Program-made: the position numbers and the translations under genes
Notes under the pieces: generated by a model
What the model saw: the letters and a program-made list of their open reading frames with translations, nothing else
What the model was told of the DNA's origin: nothing
Database searches by the model: none
Part shown: positions 5,166 to 62,401 of the stretch, one piece after another
Layout: every line of letters starts with the position of its first letter
How positions within the stretch are numbered: position 1 is the first letter of the stretch
From: Salvelinus alpinus
Lineage: Eukaryota > Chordata > Actinopteri > Salmoniformes > Salmonidae
Assembly (NCBI RefSeq): GCF_045679555.1
Contig: NC_092100.1
Span: 34,101,106-34,165,105 of the forward strand
Direction: 5' to 3'
DNA length: 64,000 bases

Positions 5166-6763
<1,598 letters not shown>

Positions 6764-10016: not shown

Positions 10017-18972
<8,956 letters not shown>

Positions 18973-21269: not shown

Positions 21270-28747
<7,478 letters not shown>

Positions 28748-30719: not shown

Positions 30720-31292
30720 TTGGGTGGTTACGTATTACTCGCAGTCGGCATTCCAATTCATCCCAAAGGTGTTCGATGGGGTTGAGGTCAGGGCTCTGTG
30801 TAGGCCTGTCAAGTTCTTCCACACCGATCTCAACAAATCATTTCTGTATGGACCTTGCTTTATGTAAGGGAGTTTTCATTGTCATGCTGAAACAGGAAAG
30901 GGCCTTCCACAAACTGTTGCCACAAAGTTGGAAGCACAGAATTGTCTAGAAAGTCATTGTATACTGTAGCATTAAGATTTCCCTTCACTGGAACTAAGGT
31001 GCCTAGCCCGAACCATGAAAAACAGCCCAATACCATTATCCCTCCTCCACCAAACTTTATAGTTTGCACTATGCATTGGGGCAGGTAGCGTTCTCCTGGC
31101 ATCATCCAAACCCAGATTTGTTTGTCAGACTGCCCGATGGTGAAGTGTGATTCATCACTCCAGAGAAGTCCAATTGTGGCGAGCTTTACACCACTCCAGC
31201 CGACGCTTGTCATTGCACATGGTGATCTTAGGCTTGTGTGCGGCTGCTCGGCCATGGAAACCCGTTTCATGAAGCTCCCGACGAACAGTTCT
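30720..31292 (-). mobile_element. Tc1-like fragment joined to a LINE fragment
   Basis: The minus strand encodes the catalytic half of a Tc1 transposase of the same family as 41,358-42,354: [12 protein letters not shown] (Asp), [25 protein letters not shown] (Asp) and, after frame changes, [16 protein letters not shown] (Glu). The terminal repeats are not seen. It abuts LINE sequence at about 31,292. Confidence 0.8.
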
Positions 31293-31795
31293 TGTAACCA
31301 GACACCTAGGTATTTGTAGTTGTCCACATATTCTAAGTTAGAACCGTCCAGAGTAGTGATGCTGGACGGACGGGCAGGTGCGGGCAGCGATCGGTTGAAG
31401 AGCATGCATTTAGTTTTACTTGCATTTAAGAGCAGTTGGAGGACACGGAAGGAGAGTTGTATGGCATTTAAGCTCGTCTGGAGGTTAGTTAACACAGTGT
31501 CCAAAGAAGGGCCAGAAGTATACAGAATGGTATCGTCTGCATAGAGGTGGATCAGAGAATCACCAGCAGCAAGAGCAACATCATTGATGTATACAGAGAA
31601 GAGAGTCGGCCCGAGAATTGAACCCTGTGGCACCTCCAAAGAGACTGGCAGAGGTCCGGACAACATGCCCTCCGATTTGACACACTGAACTCTATCAGAG
31701 AAGTAGTTGGTGAACCAGGCGAGGCAGTCATTTGAGAAACCAAGGCTGTTGAGTCTGCCGATAAGAATGTGGCTATTCAATGACTCTATGTACAT
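31293..31795 (-). mobile_element. LINE reverse transcriptase fragment
   Basis: The fragment encodes the palm of the same RT as 60,520-61,926, including [23 protein letters not shown] and the catalytic YADDTILY intact. It lacks both the fingers and the C-terminus. The reading frame runs without a stop into the adjacent Tc1 fragment, producing one 311-codon chimeric ORF (31,795-30,860). Confidence 0.85.
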
Positions 31796-31799
31796 AGGG

Positions 31800-32225
31800 C
31801 AGCAGTCTCTAAGGTTCAGGCTAGAGAACGGGGTGGGAGCTGGCTAGAAACTGCGACTCAGTTCAGGGCAGGGTACTGGGCAGAGGCCGGCTAGTGGTGA
31901 CTATTTAATCGTCTGATGGCATTGAGAAAGAAGCTGTTTTTCAGTCTCTCGTTCCCAGCTTTGATGCACCTGTCCTAACCCCTTCATGGGGTGAACAGGC
32001 CGTGGCTCGGGTGGCTGAGGTCCTTGATGATCTTCTTGGCCTTCCTGTGACACCGGGTGCTGTAGATGTCCCGGGGGGCAGGCAGTGTGACACATTGAGC
32101 TGACCGCACCACCCTCTGAAAGCTCTGTGGTTGCGGTCGGTGCAATTAATTGTCGTACCAGGTGGTGATACAGCCCTACAGTATGCTCTCAATGGTGCAT
32201 CTGTAGAAGTTTGTGAGGGTCTTAA
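31800..32225 (-). mobile_element. Rex1-like LINE 3' fragment
   Basis: On the minus strand, in alternating frames, the text follows the C-terminal part of the Rex1-like family. The transcribed block includes 'tgtgacaccgggtgctgtag' and ends with a Rex1-like upstream piece near 32,200. It contains frameshifts throughout and no open reading frame. Confidence 0.65.
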
Positions 32226-33970: not shown

Positions 33971-33973
33971 TTA

Positions 33974-36312
33974 CAGTTCTTTCCAATTGCTAACACACTA
34001 AAATGACATGCACAGCACAATTATTTAAACTGACACACAGAGAGCAAAACCTCTTCTCAAGTCTCCAAAAGTCTAAACACATTTTCTGCTTTACACACAT
34101 TTTGCAATTCAAAATGGCACTTTTTAAATGCACTGCACACGGTTCTCTGCATAAGACACAACAATCTGACATAAAGTCACATGTTTGCCATTTCAAAACA
34201 CTGCCATTCAAAATGACACTACATGAGCTAATTGGCCAATACATGTGCCACCTGGCCAAACACCTCAATGGTTAATTGTTACCACTTCAATCAAGAAGTA
34301 AGCACTATGAAAAGACCACAGGTGAGTACTTTTTGTTTTACAACAACAATGGAAGCCGTTGCAGAGAGAGGAAGAGGAAGAGGGAGGGTAAGAATGAGAG
34401 GGGGAGGAAGAGTGAGAGGTAGGGGTAGAGCTGGTAGAGGAGTTCATGGCCAAAGAAGACAACATCTTTCAAAAGAAATCAGAGCAACCTTAGTTGATCA
34501 TGTCATCAACCATGGGTTGACAATGCGAGAGGCTGGACAGAGAGTGCAGCCCAACTTGAGCCGTTTAACTGTCGCCTGTATCATCCGGACATTTAGACTG
34601 GAGTACAGGTATGTAACCAAAATTTCTTTCACACTATGTAGTACACCCCATGTCATAGTGTATCAGTTGGGTGACACCTGTTTACTTCATGAATGGCTGA
34701 TGTCATACACTAACTGCACAAATCTCCTGTAGAATTTATTCTACTGTGGGGGAAATATCTTTAGGCTGCATTGTCCAAGCCATATATTTTTGTTTTTTTG
34801 TTTTTCTAAAGGACTGAGAGACGTAACCATGGTGGAGGAAGGGGCCAAATGTTCACCGGGGTACAGGAAGCTGCCATTGTAAACTTGGTTTTGGAAAATA
34901 ATAAAATCAGATTACGAGAAATTCAAAGCCACATCATCCAAGACAACACCATATTCAACAACATTCAACGAGTCAGTCTGTCCACATTGGCTCGCATTCT
35001 CAAGTGAAACCAAATCAGAATGAAACAACTTTATAAGGTGCCGTTTGAGAGAAACTCTCAAAGAAACAAAGAGGTCAGACGAGCATATGTGGATGTAAGT
35101 ACAATATTGACTGCAGTACACTACACGCAACATTGTTTCCCAGTGTACTGGATAACACCATATTGACTGCTTTTGTTCTTTGTTTTCAGGGAGTACTGGA
35201 AATGGATGCTCATGCAATCCCACATGAGTTCATCTTTATAGATGAGGCTGGATTCAACCTGGCAAAGACCAGAAGAAGGGGGAGAAACGTCATTGGCCAC
35301 AGAGCCATTATAGATGTTCCTGGCCAACGTGGCGGGAACATCACAATGGCCGCTGCCATCTCCAATACGCATGGTGTCCTCCACCGTCATGCCAACCTTG
35401 GACCATACAACACAGCCTATATTCTCACATTTCTGGACAGTCTCCACAACATTCTCATACCACCAGAGCGTATGAATGATGCAGACCATCAAAGAACCCG
35501 GTACGTTGTAGTATAGGACAACGTGAGCTTTCATCGTGCAGCCCCAGTCCAAAACTGGTTTGCTGACCACCCACCATTTCTCATGCAATACCTCCCACCA
35601 TACTCACCATTTCTGAACCCCATAGAAGAGTTATTTTCGGCATGGCGGTGGAAGGTATACGACCGGCAGCCCTTTGTGCGCATGCCTCTTGTGCAGGCTA
35701 TGGGAGAGGCATGTGATGAGATTGATGTGGGTGCGATTCAGGGATGGATAAGGCACTCAAGGCACTTCTTCCCTCGATGTCTGGCAAGGGAAGATATTGC
35801 CTGTGATGTGGACGAGGCGTTGTGGCCAGACCCAGCTGTGCGGCAAGATGCTGCCTAATTATTTTTCTTGCCCGCAATTTTCTTTTTCAGTTTACTGTTT
35901 TTTTGTGAGCATATTTTTGTTCAGTCCAATGTAAATATATATGCTGTGCATATGTTGCACTGACTTGTTTGGTGAAAAATAAATAAATATTTCTGTGCAT
36001 CTGAAGAATTTTCTAGAATTTGAACTATTTTAGTATTATGGCAAAGCATACTAAAGATGAGAGTGCTTTTCATTATGCCCAACAGTGTGTAGTTGGTTAG
36101 ACAAAAATCTGGTAATATGAATGAAGTGTGTGCCATTTCGTGCAAACCTTTGATTTTGATAATGCTATATGTAGTTTTGGTTGCAGTGCTTCATTTTGCA
36201 GGATATATGAGGTATTTTGCAGTTTGGGTGTGTGGTTTTGTGAATTGTGTTAAGTATTTTGATAAAACCAGCCTAATTTGCAAAATTGTGTTTTAGCAAT
36301 TGGGAAAAACTG
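33974..36312 (+). mobile_element. IS630/Tc1-mariner element with an intron-containing DD35E transposase
   Basis: The ends are inverted copies of about 26 bp: cagttctttccaattgctaa on the left and, as complement, cagtttttcccaattgctaa on the right. TA flanks both sides (33,972-33,973 and 36,313-36,314). At 2,339 bp it is longer than the Tc1 elements around it. Inside is one transposase gene with two typical GT-AG introns. Subterminal regions (33,990-34,340 and 35,900-36,290) are A/T-rich with 'attttgca' and 'tgtgttta' motifs. It is an intergenic insertion complete at both ends. Confidence 0.88.
34349..35858 (+). pseudogene. Spliced DD35E transposase (IS630-Tc1-mariner superfamily), two nonsense codons
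   Basis: The enzyme would excise and insert the surrounding element. Exons 34,349-34,608, 34,812-35,094 and 35,190-35,858 join in frame to about 403 codons. The N-terminus (residues 5-36) is a run of Arg and Gly, like an RGG box. Next come helix-turn-helix regions (HGLTMREAGQRVQPNLSR; KIRLREIQSHII). The catalytic core keeps IDEAGFN (Asp), a Gly-rich RGGNITMAAAIS segment, DNVSFHR (Asp) and PPYSPFLNPIEELF (Glu), with 35 residues between the last two. TGA at 35,005-35,007 (LK*NQ) and TAG at 35,514-35,516 (VVV*DN) each look like a single base change. Otherwise it is well kept, so loss was recent or the copies nearby in the genome are active. It is clearly unlike the DD34E Tc1 elements elsewhere in the window. 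Confidence 0.82.
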
Positions 36313-36429
36313 TAATGGAGAAACTCATTGTTGAGGAATGTGTTTGCTTCTTAAATTGCTTATAGAAAAATTGCTTGTAGTATTATATGTTTTTATTACA
36401 TTGTATGCTTGAATGTTGTACACTGTATC

Positions 36430-45200: not shown

Positions 45201-48200
45201 TTGTGTAGTTTAGAGTAAATTGTCAAGGTAACCTAGCCAGCTACACTTTCAAACTAAGTCAACAACGCAGCCACTGCTAGCTAGCCTACTCCAACAGCCA
45301 GCAGCACTGTATCATTTTAGTCAATAAGATTTCTTTTTTTTTTGCAACGAAAGCTTAACTTTCTGAACATTCGAGACGTGTAGTGTCATTCCAATCTCCT
45401 TTGCATTAGCGTAGCCTCTTCTGTAGCCTGTCAACTATGTGTCTGTCTATCCCTCTTCTCTCCTCTCTGCACAGACCATACAAACGCTTCACACCGAGTG
45501 GCCGCCGCCCCTCTAACCTGGTGGTCCCAGCGCGCACGACCCACGTGGAGTTCCAGGTCTCCGGCAGCCTCTGGAACTGCCGATCTGCGGCCAACAAGGC
45601 AGAGTTCATCTCAGCCTATGCTTCCCTCCAGTCCCTCGACTTCTTGGCACTGACAGAAACATGGATTACCACAGATAACACTGCTACTCCTACTGCTCTC
45701 TCCTCGTCTGCCCACGTGTTCTCGCACACCCCGAGAGCTTCTGGTCAGCGGGGTGGTGGCACTGGGATCCTCATCTCTCCCAAGTGGACATTCTCTCTCT
45801 CTCCCCTGACCCATCTGTCTATCGCCTCCTTTGAATTCCATGCTGTCACAGTTACCAGCCCTTTCAAGCTTAACATCCTTATCATTTATCGCCCCCCAGG
45901 TTCCCTTGGAGAGTTCATCAATGAGCTTGACGCCTTGATAAGTTCCTTTCCTGAGGATGGCTCACCTCTCACAGTTCTGGGTGACTTTAACCTCCCCACG
46001 TCTACCTTTGACTCATTCCTCTCTGCCTCCTTCTTTCCACTCCTCTCCTCTTTTGACCTCACCCTCTCACCTTCCCCCCCTACTCACAAGGCAGGCAATA
46101 CGCTTGACCTCATCTTTACTAGATGCTGTTCTTCCACTAATCTCATTGCAACTCCCCTCCAAGTCTCCGACCACTACCTTGTATCCTTTTCCCTCTCGCT
46201 CTCATCCAACACTTCCCACACTGCCCCCACTCGGATGGTATCGCGCCGTCCCAACCTTCGCTCTCTCTCCCCCGCTACTCTCTCCTCTTCCATCCTATCA
46301 TCTCTTCCCTCTGCTCAAACCTTCTCCAACCTATCTCCTGATTCTGCCTCCTCAACCCTCCTCTCCTCCCTTTCTGCATCCTTTAACTCTCTATGTCCCC
46401 TATCCTCCAGGCCGGCTCGGTTCTCCCCTCCTGCTCCGTGGCTCGACGACTCATTGCGAGCTCACAGAACAGGGCTCCGGGCAGCCGAGCGGAAATGGAG
46501 GAAAACTCGCCTCCCTGCGGACCTGGCATCCTTTCACTCCCTCCTCTCTACATTCTCCTCTTCTGTCTCTGCTGCTAAAGCCACTTTCTACCACTCTAAA
46601 TTCCAAGCATCTGCCTCTAACCCTAGGAAGCTCTTTGCCACCTTCTCCTCCCTCCTGAATCCTCCTCCCCCTCCCCCCTCCTCCTCCCTCTCTGCGGATG
46701 ACTTCGTCAACCATTTTGAAAAGAAGGTCGACGACATCCGATCCTCGTTTGCTAAGTCAAACGACACCGCTGGTTCTGCTCACACTGCCCTACCCTGTGC
46801 TTTGACCTCTTTCTCCCCTCTCTCTCCAGATGAAATCTTGCATCTTGTGACGGCCGGCCGCCCAACAACCTGCCCGCTTGACCCTATCCCCTCCTCTCTT
46901 CTCCAGGCCATTTCCGGAGACCTTCTCCCTTACCTCACCTCGCTCATCAACTCATCCTTGACCGCTGGCTACGTCCCTCCCGCCTTCAAGAGAGCGAGAG
47001 TTGCACCCCTGCTGAAAAAACCTACACTCGATCCCTCCGATGTCAACAACTACAGACCAGTATCCCTTCTTTCTTTTCTCTCCAAAACTCTTGAACGTGC
47101 CGTCCTTGGCCAGCTCTCCTGCTATCTCTCTCAGAATGACCTTCTTGATCCAAATCAGTCAGGTTTCAAGACTAGTCATTCAACTGAGACTGCTCTTCTC
47201 TGTGTCACGGAGGCGCTCCGCACTGCTAAAGCTAACTCTCTCTCCTCTGCTCTCATCCTTCTAGACCTATCGGCTGCCTTTGATACAGTGAACCATCAGA
47301 TCCTCCTCTCCACCCTCTCCGAGTTGGGCATCTCCGGCGCGGCCCACGCTTGGATTGCGTCCTACCTGACAGGTCGCTCCTACCAGGTGGCGTGGCGAGA
47401 ATCTGTCTCCGCACCACGTGCTCTCACCACTGGTGTCCCCCAGGGCTCTGTTCTAGGCCCTCTCCTATTCTCGCTATACACCAAGTCACTTGGCTCTGTC
47501 ATATCCTCACATGGTCTCTCCTATCATTGCTATGCAGACGACACACAATTAATCTTCTCCTTTCCCCCTTCTGATAACCAGGTGGCGAATCGCATCTCTG
47601 CATGTCTGGCAGACATATCAGTGTGGATGACGGATCACCACCTCAAGCTGAACCTCGGCAAGACGGAGCTGCTCTTCCTCCCGGGGAAGGACTGCCCGTT
47701 CCATGATCTCGCCATCACGGTTGACAACTCCATTGTGTCCTCCTCCCAGAGTGCTAAGAACCTTGGCGTGATCCTGGACAACACGCTGTCGTTCTCAACT
47801 AACATCAAGGCGGTGACCCGTTCCTGTAGGTTCATGCTCTACAACATTCGCAGAGTACGACCCTGCCTCACACAGGAAGCGGCGCAGGTCCTAATCCAGG
47901 CACTTGTCATCTCCCGTCTGGACTACTGCAACTCGCTGTTGGCTGGGCTCCCTGCCTGTGCCATTAAACCCCTACAACTCATCCAGAACGCCGCAGCCCG
48001 TCTGGTGTTCAACCTTCCCAAGTTCTCTCACGTCACCCCGCTCCTCCGCTCTCTCCACTGGCTTCCAGTTGAAGCTCGCATCCGCTACAAGACAATGGTG
48101 CTTGCCTACGGAGCTGTGAGGGGAACGGCACCTCCGTACCTTCAGGCTCTGATCAGGCCCTACACCCAAACAAGGGCACTGCGTTCATCCACTTCTGGCC

Positions 48201-51200
48201 TGCTCGCCTCCCTACCTCTGAGGAAGTACAGCTCCCGCTCAGCCCAGTCAAAACTGTTCGCTGCTCTGGCACCCCAATGGTGGAACAAACTCCCCCACGA
48301 CGCCAGGTCAGCGGAGTCAATCACCACCTTCCGGAAACACCTGAAACACCACCTCTTTAAGGAATACCTAGGATAGGATAAAGTAATCCTTCTAACCCCC
48401 CCCCCTTAAAAGAGTTAGATGCACTATTGTAAAGTGGTTGTTCCACTGGATATCATAAGGTGAATGCACCAACTTGTAAGTCGCTCTGGATAAGAGCGTC
48501 TGCTAAATGACTTAAATGTAAATGTATATGATAACAACATCCTGAAGATTGATTCTCTACTTAATTTGACCAGTTTATTCGACCTGGAATATAACTTTTT
48601 TAAGTTTTCGTCCGAGTTCGCCTGGACCGGTGCCAGCGTTTGGACATGTGAACTAAACGTGCCTGCAAAAGTACACTAGTAATGGACATTATCGAACAAA
48701 ACAACGATTTATTGTGGAAATAGGATTCCTGGCACTGCATTCTGGTGAAAGATCATCAAAGGTAAGGGAATATTTATGATGTAATTTCGTATTTCTGTTG
48801 ACTCCAACAAGGCGGAGAAATGTTGTGTATTTCTGAGCGCCGTCTCAGATTATTGCTGTCACGTTCTGACCATTGTTCTTTTGTGTTTTCGTTGTTTTAG
48901 TGTTGGTCAGGACGTGAGCTGAGTATGCATTCTATGTTGTCTGTTTCTATGTGGGTTTCTTGTTTGGCCTGATATGGTGCTCAATCAGAGACAGGTGTTT
49001 TGCGTTGTCTCTGATTGGGAACCATATTTAGGTAGCCTGTTTTGTGTTGGGGTTTGTGAGTGGTTGTCTTCTGTCTTTGTGTCTATGCACCAGATAGGAC
49101 TGTTTCGGTTTTTCACGTTTGTTGTTTTGGTATTTTGTAGTGTTCACATTTTTGTCATTATTAAAACATGATAAACACTAACCACGCTGCACTTTGGTCC
49201 GATCCCTGCTACACCTCCTCTTCAGACGAAGAGGAGGAAATCTGCCGTTACAGAACCACCCACCAAAAGAGGACCAAGCAGCGTGGTAACGGGCAGCAGC
49301 GGCAACAGCAGCAGCAGCGGCCAAGTACACACGACTCCTGGACATGGGAGGAAATTCTGGACGGTAAGGGACCCTGGGTTCAAGCTGGAGAATATCGCCG
49401 CCCTCGTGAAGAGCTGGAGGCAGCTAAAGCCGAGTAGCGGTGGTATGAGGAGGCAGAACGCAAGCGTGGCTAGAAGCCAGAGAGGCAGCCCCAAAAATTT
49501 CTTAGGGGGGGGCACACGGGGAGTGTGGCGAAGTCACGTTGGAGACTTGCGCCAACTTCCCGCGCTTACCGTGGAGAGCAAGAGTACGGGCAGACACCGT
49601 GTTATGCGGAAGAGCGCACGGTGTCTCCTGTACGTGTGCATAGCCCGGTGCGGTACATCCCAGCTCCTCGTATCGGCCGGGCTAGAGTGGGCATCGAGCC
49701 AGGTGCCATGAAGCTGGCTCAACGCATCTGGTCTCCAGTGCGTCTCCCTGGGCCGGTGTACATGGCACCAGCCTTACGCATGGTGTCCCCCGTTCGCCAG
49801 CACAGCCCAGTGCGGGTTATTCCACCTCGCCGCACTGGCCGGGCTAAGGGGAGTATTCAACCAGGTAAGGTTGGGCAGGCTCGGTGCTCAAGAGCTCCAG
49901 TACGCCTTCACGGTCCGGTATATCCGGTGCCACCTCCTCGCACCAGCTCAGTACCACCAGTGCATACACCACGCACCAGGCTTCCTGTGCGTCTCCAGAG
50001 CCCTGTTCCTCCTCCACGCACTCGCCCTGTGGTGCGTGTCTCCAGCCCGGTACCACCAGTTCCGGCACCACGCACCAAGCCTACTGTGCGCCTCAGCAGG
50101 TCAGAGTCTGCCGTCTGCCCAGCGTAGCCTGCGCTGCCCGTCTGCCCAGCGCCACCTGCGCTACCCGTCTGCCCAGCGCCACCTGCGCTGCCCGTCTGCC
50201 CAGCGCCGTTTGAGCTGCCCGTCTGCCCAGCGCCATCTGAGCCGCCCGTCTGCCCAGCGCCATCTGAGCCGCCCGTCTGTCCAGCGCCATCTGAGCCGCC
50301 CATCTGTCCTGAGCCGCTAGAGCCATCCATCAGTCAGGAGCCGCCAGAGCCGCCCGCCAGTCAGGAGCCGCCGGAGCCGCCCGCCAGTCAGGAGCCGCCG
50401 GAGCCGCCCGCCAGTCAGGAGCCGCCGGAGCCGCCCGCCAGTCAGGAGCCGCCGGAGCCGCCCGCCAGTCAGGAGCTGCCAGAGCCGCCCGCCAGTCAGG
50501 AGCTGCCCTTCAGTCATGAGCTGCCCTCCAGTCATGAGCTGCCCTTCAGTCATGAGCTGCCCTCCAGTCATGAGCTGCCCTTCAGTCATGAGCTGCCCTT
50601 CAGTCATGAGCTGCCATTCAGTCCGGAGCTGCCATTCAGTCCGGAGCTGCCCTTCAGTCCGGAGCTGCCCTTCAGTCCGGAGCTGCCCTTCAGTCCGGAG
50701 CTGCCCTTCAGTCCAGAGCTGCCCTCAGCCATGAGCTACCTCTCAGTCATGAGCTACCTCTCAGTCATGAGCTACCTCTCAGTCATGAGCTACCTCTCAG
50801 TCATGAGCTGCCCCTCAGTCCTGAGCTGCCCCTCAGTCCTGAGCTGCCCCTCAGTCCGGAGCTGCCTCTCAGTCCGGAGCTGCTTCTTCAGTCCAGAGCT
50901 GCTTCTTCAGTCCAGAGGCGTCTTTCAGTCCAGAAGTGTCCCTCAGTCCTGTGGGCTCATTTAGTAGGGTTCCCAGGCCAGGGTCGGCGGCGAGGGTCGC
51001 CGCTCAAAGGAGGACACTAAAGCGGACAAAGACTATGGTGGAGTGGGGTCCACGTCCTGCGCCAGAGCCGCCACCGCGGCTGATATGGTTCTCAATCAGA
51101 GACAGGTGTTTTGCGTTGTCTCTGATTGGGAACCATATTTAGGTAGCCTGTTTTGTGTTGGGGTTTGTGGGTGGTTGTCTTCTGTCTTTGTGTCTATGCA

Positions 51201-59534: not shown

Positions 59535-62401
59535 GTGCCTAGCCCCACTCCCCAGGTGCTCTCATTTGTTGACTTCTGTAACCGTAAAAGCCTTGGTTTC
59601 ATGCATGTTAACATTATAAGCCTACTCCCTAACTTTGTTTTACTCACAGCTTTAGCACACTCTGCCAACCCGGATGTCTTAGCCGTGTCTGAATCCTGGC
59701 TTAGGAAAACCCCTGAAATCTCCATCGCAAACTATAACATTTTCTGCCAAGTTAGAACTGGCAAAGGGGGCAGTGTTGCAATCTACTGCAAAGATAGCCT
59801 GCAGAGTTCTGTATTACTATCCAAGTCTGTACCCAAACAATTCGAGCTTCTACTTCTAAAAAGAGACTTTCCAGAAACAAGTCTCTCACTGTTGCCGCTT
59901 GCTATAGACCTCCCTCTGCCCCCAGCTGTGCCCTCGATACCATATGTGAATTGATTGCCCCCCATCTATCTTCTTAGCTCGTGCTACGAGGTGACCTAAA
60001 CTGGGACATGCTTAACACCCCGGCCATCCTATAATCTAAGCTTGATGCCCTCAATCTCACAGAAATTATCAATGAACCTACCAGGTACAACTCCAAATCC
60101 GTAAACACGGGCACCCTCATAGATGTCATCCTAACTAACTCGCCCTCCAAATACACCTCTGCTGTTTTCAATCAAGATCTCAGCGATAACTGCCTCATTG
60201 CCTGCATCCGTAATGGGTCGGCGACCAAACGACCACCCTTCATCACTGTCAAACGCTCCCTAAAACACTTCTGCGAGCAGGCCTTTCTAATCGACCTGGC
60301 CGGAGTATCCTGGAATGACATTGACCTCATCCCGTCAGAAGATGTTGCCTGGCTATTCTTTAAAAGTGCCTTCCTCACCATCTTAAATAAGCATGCCCCA
60401 TTCATAAATTTAGAACTAGGAATAGATATAGTCCTTGGTTCAACCCAGACCTGTCTGCCCTTGACCAGCACAAAAACATCCTGTGGTGTTCTGCATTAGC
60501 ATCGAACAGCCCCCGTGATATGCAACTTTTCAGGGAAGTTAGGAACAAATATACACAGGCAGTTAGGAAAGCAAAGGCTAGCTTTTTCAAACAGAAATTT
60601 GCATCCTGTAGTACTAACTCAAAAAAGTTCTGGGACACTGTAAAGTCCATGGAGAATAAGAGCCCCTCCCAGCTGCCCACTGCTCTGAGGCTAGGAAACA
60701 CTGTCACCACCGATAAATCCACTATAATTGAGAATTTCAATAAGAATTTCTCTACGGCTGGCCATGCTTTCCACCTGGCTACCCCTACCCCGGTCAGCTG
60801 CCCGGCACCCTCCACAGCAACCCGCCAAAGCCCCCACCATTTCTCCTTCAACCAAATCCAGATAGCTGATGTTCTGAAAGAGTTGCAAAATCTGGACCCC
60901 TACAAATTAGCCGGGCTAGACAATCTGCACCCTCTCTTTCTAAAATTATCTGCCGAAATTGTTGCAACCCGTATTATTAGCCTGTTCAACCTGTCTTTCT
61001 TATCGTCTGAGATTCCCAAAGATTGGAAAGCTGCCGCAGTCATCCCCCTCTTCAAAGGGGGTGACACTCTAGACCCAAACTGCTACAGACCTATATCTAT
61101 CCTACCCTGTCTTTCTAAGGTCTTCGAAAGCCAAGTTAACAAACAGATTACCGACCATTTCGAATCCCACCGTACCTTCTCCGCTATGCAATCTGGTTTC
61201 AGACCTGGTCATGGGTGCACCTCAGCCACACTCAAGGTCCTAAACGACATCATAACCGCCATCGATAAGAGACATTACTGCGCAGCCGTATTCATCGACC
61301 TGGCCAACGCTTTCGACTCTGTCAATCACCACATTCTTATTGGCAGACTCGACAGCCTTGGTTTCTCAAATGATTGCCTCGCCTGGTTTACCAACTACTT
61401 CTCTGATAGAGTTCAGTGTGCCAAATCGGAGGGCCTGTTGTCCGGACCTCTGGCAGTCTCTATGGGGGCGCCACAGGGTTCAATCCTCGGGCCGACTTTC
61501 TTCTCTGTATACGTCAATGATGTTGATCTTGCTGCTGGTGATTCTCTGATACACCTCTACGCAGACGACACCATTCTGTATACGTCTGGCCCCTCTTTGG
61601 ACACTGTGTTAACTAACCTCCAGACGAGCTTCAATGCCATACAACTCTCCTTCCGTGTCCTCCAACTGCTCTTAAACGCAAGTAAAACTAAATGCATGCT
61701 ATTCAACCGATCACTGCCCGCACCTGCTCGCCCGTCCAGCATCACTACTTTGGACGGCTCTGACTTAGAATACGTGGACAACTACAAATACCTTGGTGTC
61801 TGGTTAGACTGTAAACTCTCCTTCCAGACTCACATTAAGCATCTCCAATCCAAAATTAAATCTAGAATCTGTTCCTATATCGCAACAAAGCATTCTTCAC
61901 TCATGCTGCAAAACATACCCTCGTAAAACTGACCATCCTACCGATCCTCAACTTCGGTGATGTCATCTATAAAATAGCCTCCAGCACTCTACTCAACAAA
62001 CTGGATGCAGTCTATCACAGTGCCATCCATTTTGTCACCAAAGCCCCATACACTACCCACCATCGCGACCTGTACACTCTCGTTGGTTGGCCCTGGCTTC
62101 ATACTCGTCGCCAAACCCACTGGCTACAGGTAATCTACAAGTCTCTGCTAGGTAAAGCCCCACCTTATCTAAGCTCACTGGTCACCATAGCAGCACCCAC
62201 TCGTAGCACGCGCTCCAGCAGGTATATTTCACTGGTCACCCCCAAAGCCATTTCCTCCTTTGGTCGTCTTTCCTTCCAGTTCTCTGCTGCCAATGACTGG
62301 AACGAACTGCAAAAATCTCTGAAGCTGGAAACACTTATCTCCCTCACTAGCTTTAAGAACCAGCTGTCAGAGCAGCTCACAGATTACTGTACCTGTACAT
62401 A
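59535..62401 (+). pseudogene. LINE endonuclease/reverse transcriptase with stops
   Basis: The endonuclease part shows LGFMHVNIISLLPNFV and LAVSESWL (Glu) at 59,590-59,700. It then breaks at a stop near 59,952 and others to 60,500. From 60,520 a 468-codon frame is open: FRPGHGCTSATLKVL, VFIDLANAFDSVNH (Asp), [14 protein letters not shown] and [12 protein letters not shown] (catalytic Asp pair). A frameshift near 61,870 separates the C-terminal domain (LTILPILNFGDVIYK, LGKAPPYLSSLVT, FSAANDWNELQKSLK) that ends at 62,401. The RT active site is intact but the protein as a whole is broken. Confidence 0.85.

Follow-up and report, generated by a model that had tools for sequence, protein, structure and literature searches.

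A transposase gene split by two introns in a probable IS630-Tc1-mariner transposon of Salvelinus alpinus

Can a fish DNA transposon carry a transposase gene divided by genuine introns, or do the interruptions in such a gene reflect decay? This question is raised by an element in a 64-kb stretch of the Salvelinus alpinus genome (contig NC_092100.1, positions 34,101,106 to 34,165,105; hereafter the window), where the complete element spans 2,339 bp (33974-36312). It is bounded on the + strand by terminal inverted repeats of 25 bp (left, 33974-33998; right, 36288-36312) that match each other at 22 of 25 positions, close to the 26-bp inverted ends that a first-pass annotation of this DNA had described. 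The TA duplications named in the same annotation are present on both flanks (33972-33973 and 36313-36314), as seen by repeat and sequence inspection and by comparison of insertion sites, and the inverted arms as detected span 33971-33998 and 36288-36315. The element thus combines a TA target-site duplication and short terminal inverted repeats with a DDE catalytic domain, for which an RNase H-like fold is predicted, and these are features of the IS630-Tc1-mariner (ITm) group. We consider the element very probably a DNA transposon of this group that moved by cut and paste and whose present copy has decayed.

The transposase gene lies on the + strand in three coding segments totaling 1,212 nt, which join in frame into a 403-residue transposase only after the removal of two GT-AG introns. 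Exon 1 (34349-34608) encodes an Arg/Gly-rich N-terminus and a putatively DNA-binding stretch that can be aligned to the beginning of bacterial IS630 proteins; a profile scan of this exon gave no Pfam match. Intron 1 (34609-34811; 203 bp, GTATGT...CTAAAG, phase 2) is followed by exon 2 (34812-35094), which encodes a linker and a putative DNA-binding segment with a weak, below-cut-off match to HTH_32. Intron 2 (35095-35189; 95 bp, GTAAGT...TTTCAG, phase 0) precedes exon 3 (35190-35858), which encodes a DDE_3 catalytic domain of predicted RNase H-like fold with 35 residues between the second Asp and the Glu (DD35E). Neither intron length is divisible by three, and stops occur in all three frames of intron 1 and in two of the three frames of intron 2, including the frame that continues exon 2. 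The spliced reading frame of the window copy itself contains two in-frame stops, at 35005-35007 in exon 2 and at 35514-35516 in exon 3. These results agree with the first-pass annotation, which had listed two GT-AG introns of about 203 and 95 bp, a DD35E triad, and an Arg/Gly-rich N-terminus; its further statement that only two nonsense codons disable the element stands for breaks in the coding frame only. Judging from the sequence, both introns are probably spliced out in vivo.

An alternative is that this is an ordinary Tc1/mariner element (DD34E, or DD35E of the Traveler type) whose frame was broken by random intron-like insertions. The window copy is indeed decayed, with its two nonsense codons, and Traveler has been described as a DD35E Tc1-like family in fish, including Salmo salar (PMC7093834). 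We compared the window copy with others in the 2.37-Gb genome (928 contigs), for which the best 40 of 1,059 first-look candidates of a DNA search were scored and 39 other places were fetched. All four splice dinucleotides are kept in 37 of the 39 fetched copies; over the 40 rows that include the window, the first GT is present in 39, the first AG in 40, the second GT in 38 (with one GG and one alignment gap), and the second AG in 40. Copies lacking the introns, which the first-pass annotation had named as evidence for mere decay, were absent among the 39. Within the tested stretch, a test weakened by decay elsewhere, unspliced intron 1 was read through in an open frame in none of the 39 copies and unspliced intron 2 in two. 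Five of the 39 have an open spliced frame, and four of 39 combine an open spliced frame with all GT and AG borders and the triad motifs. Protein length is 402-405 residues in three open, fully spliced copies and 487 in a repeat-expanded one (L121). The stops at 35005-35007 and 35514-35516 occur in one and two of the 40 rows (window row included), respectively.

The same interruptions are found in more distant relatives. Among the best 150 of 1,586 candidates scored with a protein query of 108 residues of exon 3, 55 (window included) show at least 90% identity and 95 show 64-73%, many of the latter sharing the same open-frame lengths. We fetched six copies of this second group (65-72% identical), and in all six the breaks between exons 1 and 2 and between exons 2 and 3 fall at the same residues. 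Five of these copies have an intron 1 of 122-214 bp; in the sixth (L172) the donor is in place and the best join is shifted by decay. Intron 2 is 76-121 bp long in every copy, and in L169 its acceptor is displaced. Differences in exon 3 between subfamily copies concentrate at third codon positions, and dN/dS over 21 exon 3 pairs is 0.04-0.15 in 11, saturated in nine, and 0.82 in one close pair, which shows past purifying selection on the exons of the subfamilies. Intron 1 of the window, aligned with that of four subfamily copies, was no more similar to three of them than shuffled sequence would be and exceeded that level in the fourth. Exon 3 aligned strongly in all four. Because the intron positions are kept, their sequence is mostly lost, and the exons are constrained, we conclude on these comparative grounds that both introns are old and real, and that they likely predate the split of the subfamilies sampled in this genome. 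One copy calls for caution: in L167, intron 2 (114 bp) is open in frame, giving an uninterrupted stretch of 346 residues, and its retention would add 38 residues. The same two interruptions recur in all 39 fetched copies, of which 37 keep GT and AG at both introns, and in the six subfamily copies, and no relative among those examined is intronless with a continuous joined frame. Traveler is moreover described with a single frame of 304-350 residues, against about 400 in three exons here, and the transposase reaches up to 79 bits with bacterial IS630 proteins but 20.9 bits with an intact Tc1 copy from this genome. We thus find a frame broken by random insertions extremely improbable.

The copies of the window's own family differ pairwise by a median of 2.9%, with most nearest neighbors 1.3-3.0% apart. 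Three copies (L122, L124, and L129) differ by 10-11% from their nearest neighbors, which is probably caused by misalignment at arrays or ends. We found no difference between codon positions 1+2 and position 3 (p=0.46 for single-copy differences, p=1 for shared differences), and intron columns vary at about the same level as coding columns among the 40 rows. Untranslated columns hold about twice the differences of coding and intron columns, for which misalignment is likely and which is otherwise unexplained. Since the codon positions are alike and the introns are near the same level, our reading is that the window copy stems from one burst of copies that now lie about 2.9% apart and whose coding parts then seem to have drifted neutrally. 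With an assumed per-site rate of a few changes in a billion years, this burst would date to a few million years ago. A genome search for the element-end pattern (at most two mismatches) gave 206 matches, and the reversed control gave none. Among the matches listed, one region (G000:C2:79458116-79608104) contains five pairs about 1.3 kb apart that share one common variant and likely represent shorter, non-autonomous relatives arranged as a local array.

Some copies also contain internal repeat expansions. A C-terminal coding stretch that is single in the window copy (35799-35840, + strand) is tandemly amplified elsewhere, with arrays of 42-, 35-, or 31-bp units in 2 to 50 copies found in 10 of the 39 copies (L117, L121-L125, L127, L128, L133, and L134). 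The unit lengths differ between copies, which suggests that this coding end acts as a minisatellite seed from which arrays were born repeatedly and independently. In L121, seven 14-residue units in frame account for the 487-residue protein. The purine-rich stretch that encodes Arg and Gly (window 34349-34466) is likewise expanded in three of the 39 copies (L118, L126, and L133).

Why would the introns have been kept? Most simply, they would have arisen a single time and then persisted because the frame is readable only after their removal; the need to remove them to read the protein would be reason enough for them to be kept at least. They could in addition have been retained because they limit the transposase to certain tissues or allow escape from HUSH-type silencing of intronless DNA. 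Both introns have stayed in place even where the sequence of intron 1 has mostly diverged beyond recognition, and in the P element transposase introns can restrict expression, which offers an analogy for a tissue limitation. HUSH represses intronless transgenes in human cells and introns protect against it, but the same study reports limited or no protection by short introns (PMC8770142). We give an escape from silencing low weight because the introns measure only 76-214 bp, tissue-restricted splicing, which the first-pass annotation suggested, is speculation, and reading of the frame explains the conservation with no regulatory role needed. Overall, we judge that an added role of this kind is decidedly unlikely.

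The insertion sites point to a target preference. TA is present on both sides at 30 of 40 insertion sites and on one side, as aligned, at the other 10. Of 29 distinct TA-flanked sites, 24 lie within T-TA-A (TTAA), a motif that makes up 7.7% of the TA sites in the window (binomial p=1.7e-22 against this window background). Insertions therefore prefer TTAA, and this preference is stronger than expected of Tc1-type elements. We propose that the host would transcribe an intact copy and splice out its two introns, so that a protein of about 400 residues is made in which an Arg/Gly-rich N-terminus is followed by a DNA-binding part of the helix-turn-helix type and then by the DDE catalytic domain. 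Such a transposase would recognize the 25-bp ends, cut the element out, and reinsert it at TA with duplication of the TA, in most cases within TTAA.

To which lineage does such an element belong? We compared the 403-residue protein by tblastn with 72,556 plasmid records and obtained matches in 375 (best listed E 6e-20), with 11 of the 20 matches listed falling on genes annotated as IS630 family; the same search with an intact Tc1 protein of this genome (340 residues) matched a single record (E 5e-6). Against 86 bacterial open reading frames, the transposase scored up to 79 bits with phmmer (median 44), whereas the Tc1 scored up to 37 bits (median 22.8, 81 of 86 matched). These bacterial frames were recruited with this transposase (by two patterns, best 80 of at least 351) or taken from the plasmid matches, so their scores are biased toward it and the plasmid comparison alone is free of this bias. 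Four bacterial homologs align across both exon junctions of the spliced protein. These similarities raise the possibility that an IS630-type element of bacteria reached animals in an event separate from Tc1/mariner and acquired its introns later. It would then form a lineage of its own, distinct from Tc1/mariner, pogo, Gambol, and Sailor. Other comparisons speak against it. Short pieces gave mixed plasmid matches: 113 residues of exon 3 had no match among these records, and of two Tc1 pieces, one of 135 residues had seven matches and one of 229 residues had none. The IS630 profile NF033545 (curated cut-off 100) gave 28.2 and 46.3 bits to pieces of exon 3, scored separately and not joined, and 23.5-49.0 bits to four of five Tc1 pieces of the window; the DDE_3 profile gave 29.2 and 38.1 bits to the element's exon 3 pieces and up to 57.2 bits to window Tc1 pieces. 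Neither profile separates the element from Tc1. In a tree built without mariner, pogo, Gambol, Zator, or Sailor rows, the nine fish rows group as a single clade (support 100), which branches among the bacterial rows on a long stem. A constraint uniting this clade with Tc1 scores higher, however, and is not rejected (p-AU 0.84 and 0.79). Full-length similarity thus favors IS630, and the tree is undecided between IS630 and Tc1; we find an independent IS630 entry quite possible without favoring it. The fullest version, a distinct vertebrate ITm lineage derived from bacterial IS630 apart from Tc1/mariner, with two acquired introns kept through several subfamilies for transposase expression (by splicing control or silencing escape) and insertion almost only at TTAA, seems doubtful to us. 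Of the separate fish lineage advanced in the first-pass annotation, the distinction from Tc1 of the same genome held, and the word fish depends on one genome plus a candidate ISRm11 label that papers report in other teleosts.

A Tc1 family represented at window 5383-5787 (- strand) has 207,498 first-look candidates in the genome, and 148 of the best 150 scored places, counting the one in the window, show 100% identity across 135 residues, many with 361-residue frames, which suggests a young, possibly active burst. Broken Tc1-type transposase genes at 11479-12515 and 1538-1924 match DDE_3 or the Tc1/Sleeping Beauty helix-turn-helix, and an adjoining frame at 1095-1655 has no Pfam match and resembles Sleeping Beauty (85% over 116 columns). 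Long frames at 45410-48373, 60391-61923, 22182-23414, and 30863-31843, among them 988 and 511 residues, look by eye like proteins of non-long-terminal-repeat retrotransposons.

Our findings show that two introns can persist over a long period in a vertebrate ITm lineage with many copies, and that searches for single-frame transposases can miss families split by introns. The presence of open-frame copies and several subfamilies in one genome makes both intron regulation of transposition and repeated IS630 entry into animals directly testable.

How does the element compare with known systems? Bacterial IS630 members (NF033545, for example those of Nostoc) share the DDE_3 domain and colinearity with it at about 21-35% identity, but they have no introns, and the four annotated plasmid members examined are 314-339 residues long. 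Their spacing is 34 in 83 of the 86 open reading frames, 35 in two, and not found in one, as opposed to 35 in the fish transposase, which also differs by its Arg/Gly-rich head and C-terminal tail. The DD34E/Tc1 of the same genome has the same fold class, and window copies of it match DDE_3, but its intact copy (L175) has an uninterrupted 361-residue stop-to-stop frame with a spacing of 34; the first-pass claim that the other Tc1 elements here are intronless DD34E holds for this one intact copy checked. Traveler (DD35E/TR) resembles our element in its DD35E spacing, TA duplication, and occurrence in salmon, but the published description gives it one open frame in about 1.5 kb and places it closest to DD34E/Tc1 (PMC7093834). 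The gene seen here has three exons; its top scores are to IS630, with a tree union with Tc1 not rejected. From the published frame structure we rejected an identity with Traveler. Sailor (DD82E), proposed as an ITm superfamily of bacteria and eukaryotes (PMC8533490), has 78-111 residues between the second Asp and the Glu instead of 35. Relevant to the gene structure, introns are present in the transposases of C. elegans Tc1, Minos, and plant mariner-like elements, which are other lineages and are not known to share the intron numbers and positions seen here. The first two contradict a strict reading of the statement, made in a fish paper, that Tc1-like transposons have one gene without intron (PMC4683633). 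A literature search for an earlier name, which the first-pass annotation had set as a challenge to novelty, found no paper naming a family with this two-intron structure. The name ISRm11 is common to a teleost subgroup and a bacterial insertion sequence that we take to be of IS630 type. In teleost repeat annotation it labels a Tc1/Mariner subgroup (PMC4746887) and appears as DNA/TcMar-ISRm11 (PMC10770143), and the former source assigns all of its autonomous teleost Tc1/Mariner elements to Tc1 and pogo. The two-intron family would likely carry this candidate label. Overall, the gene structure is well supported and, as far as searched, undescribed, and repeat libraries appear to know this kind of element by its label.
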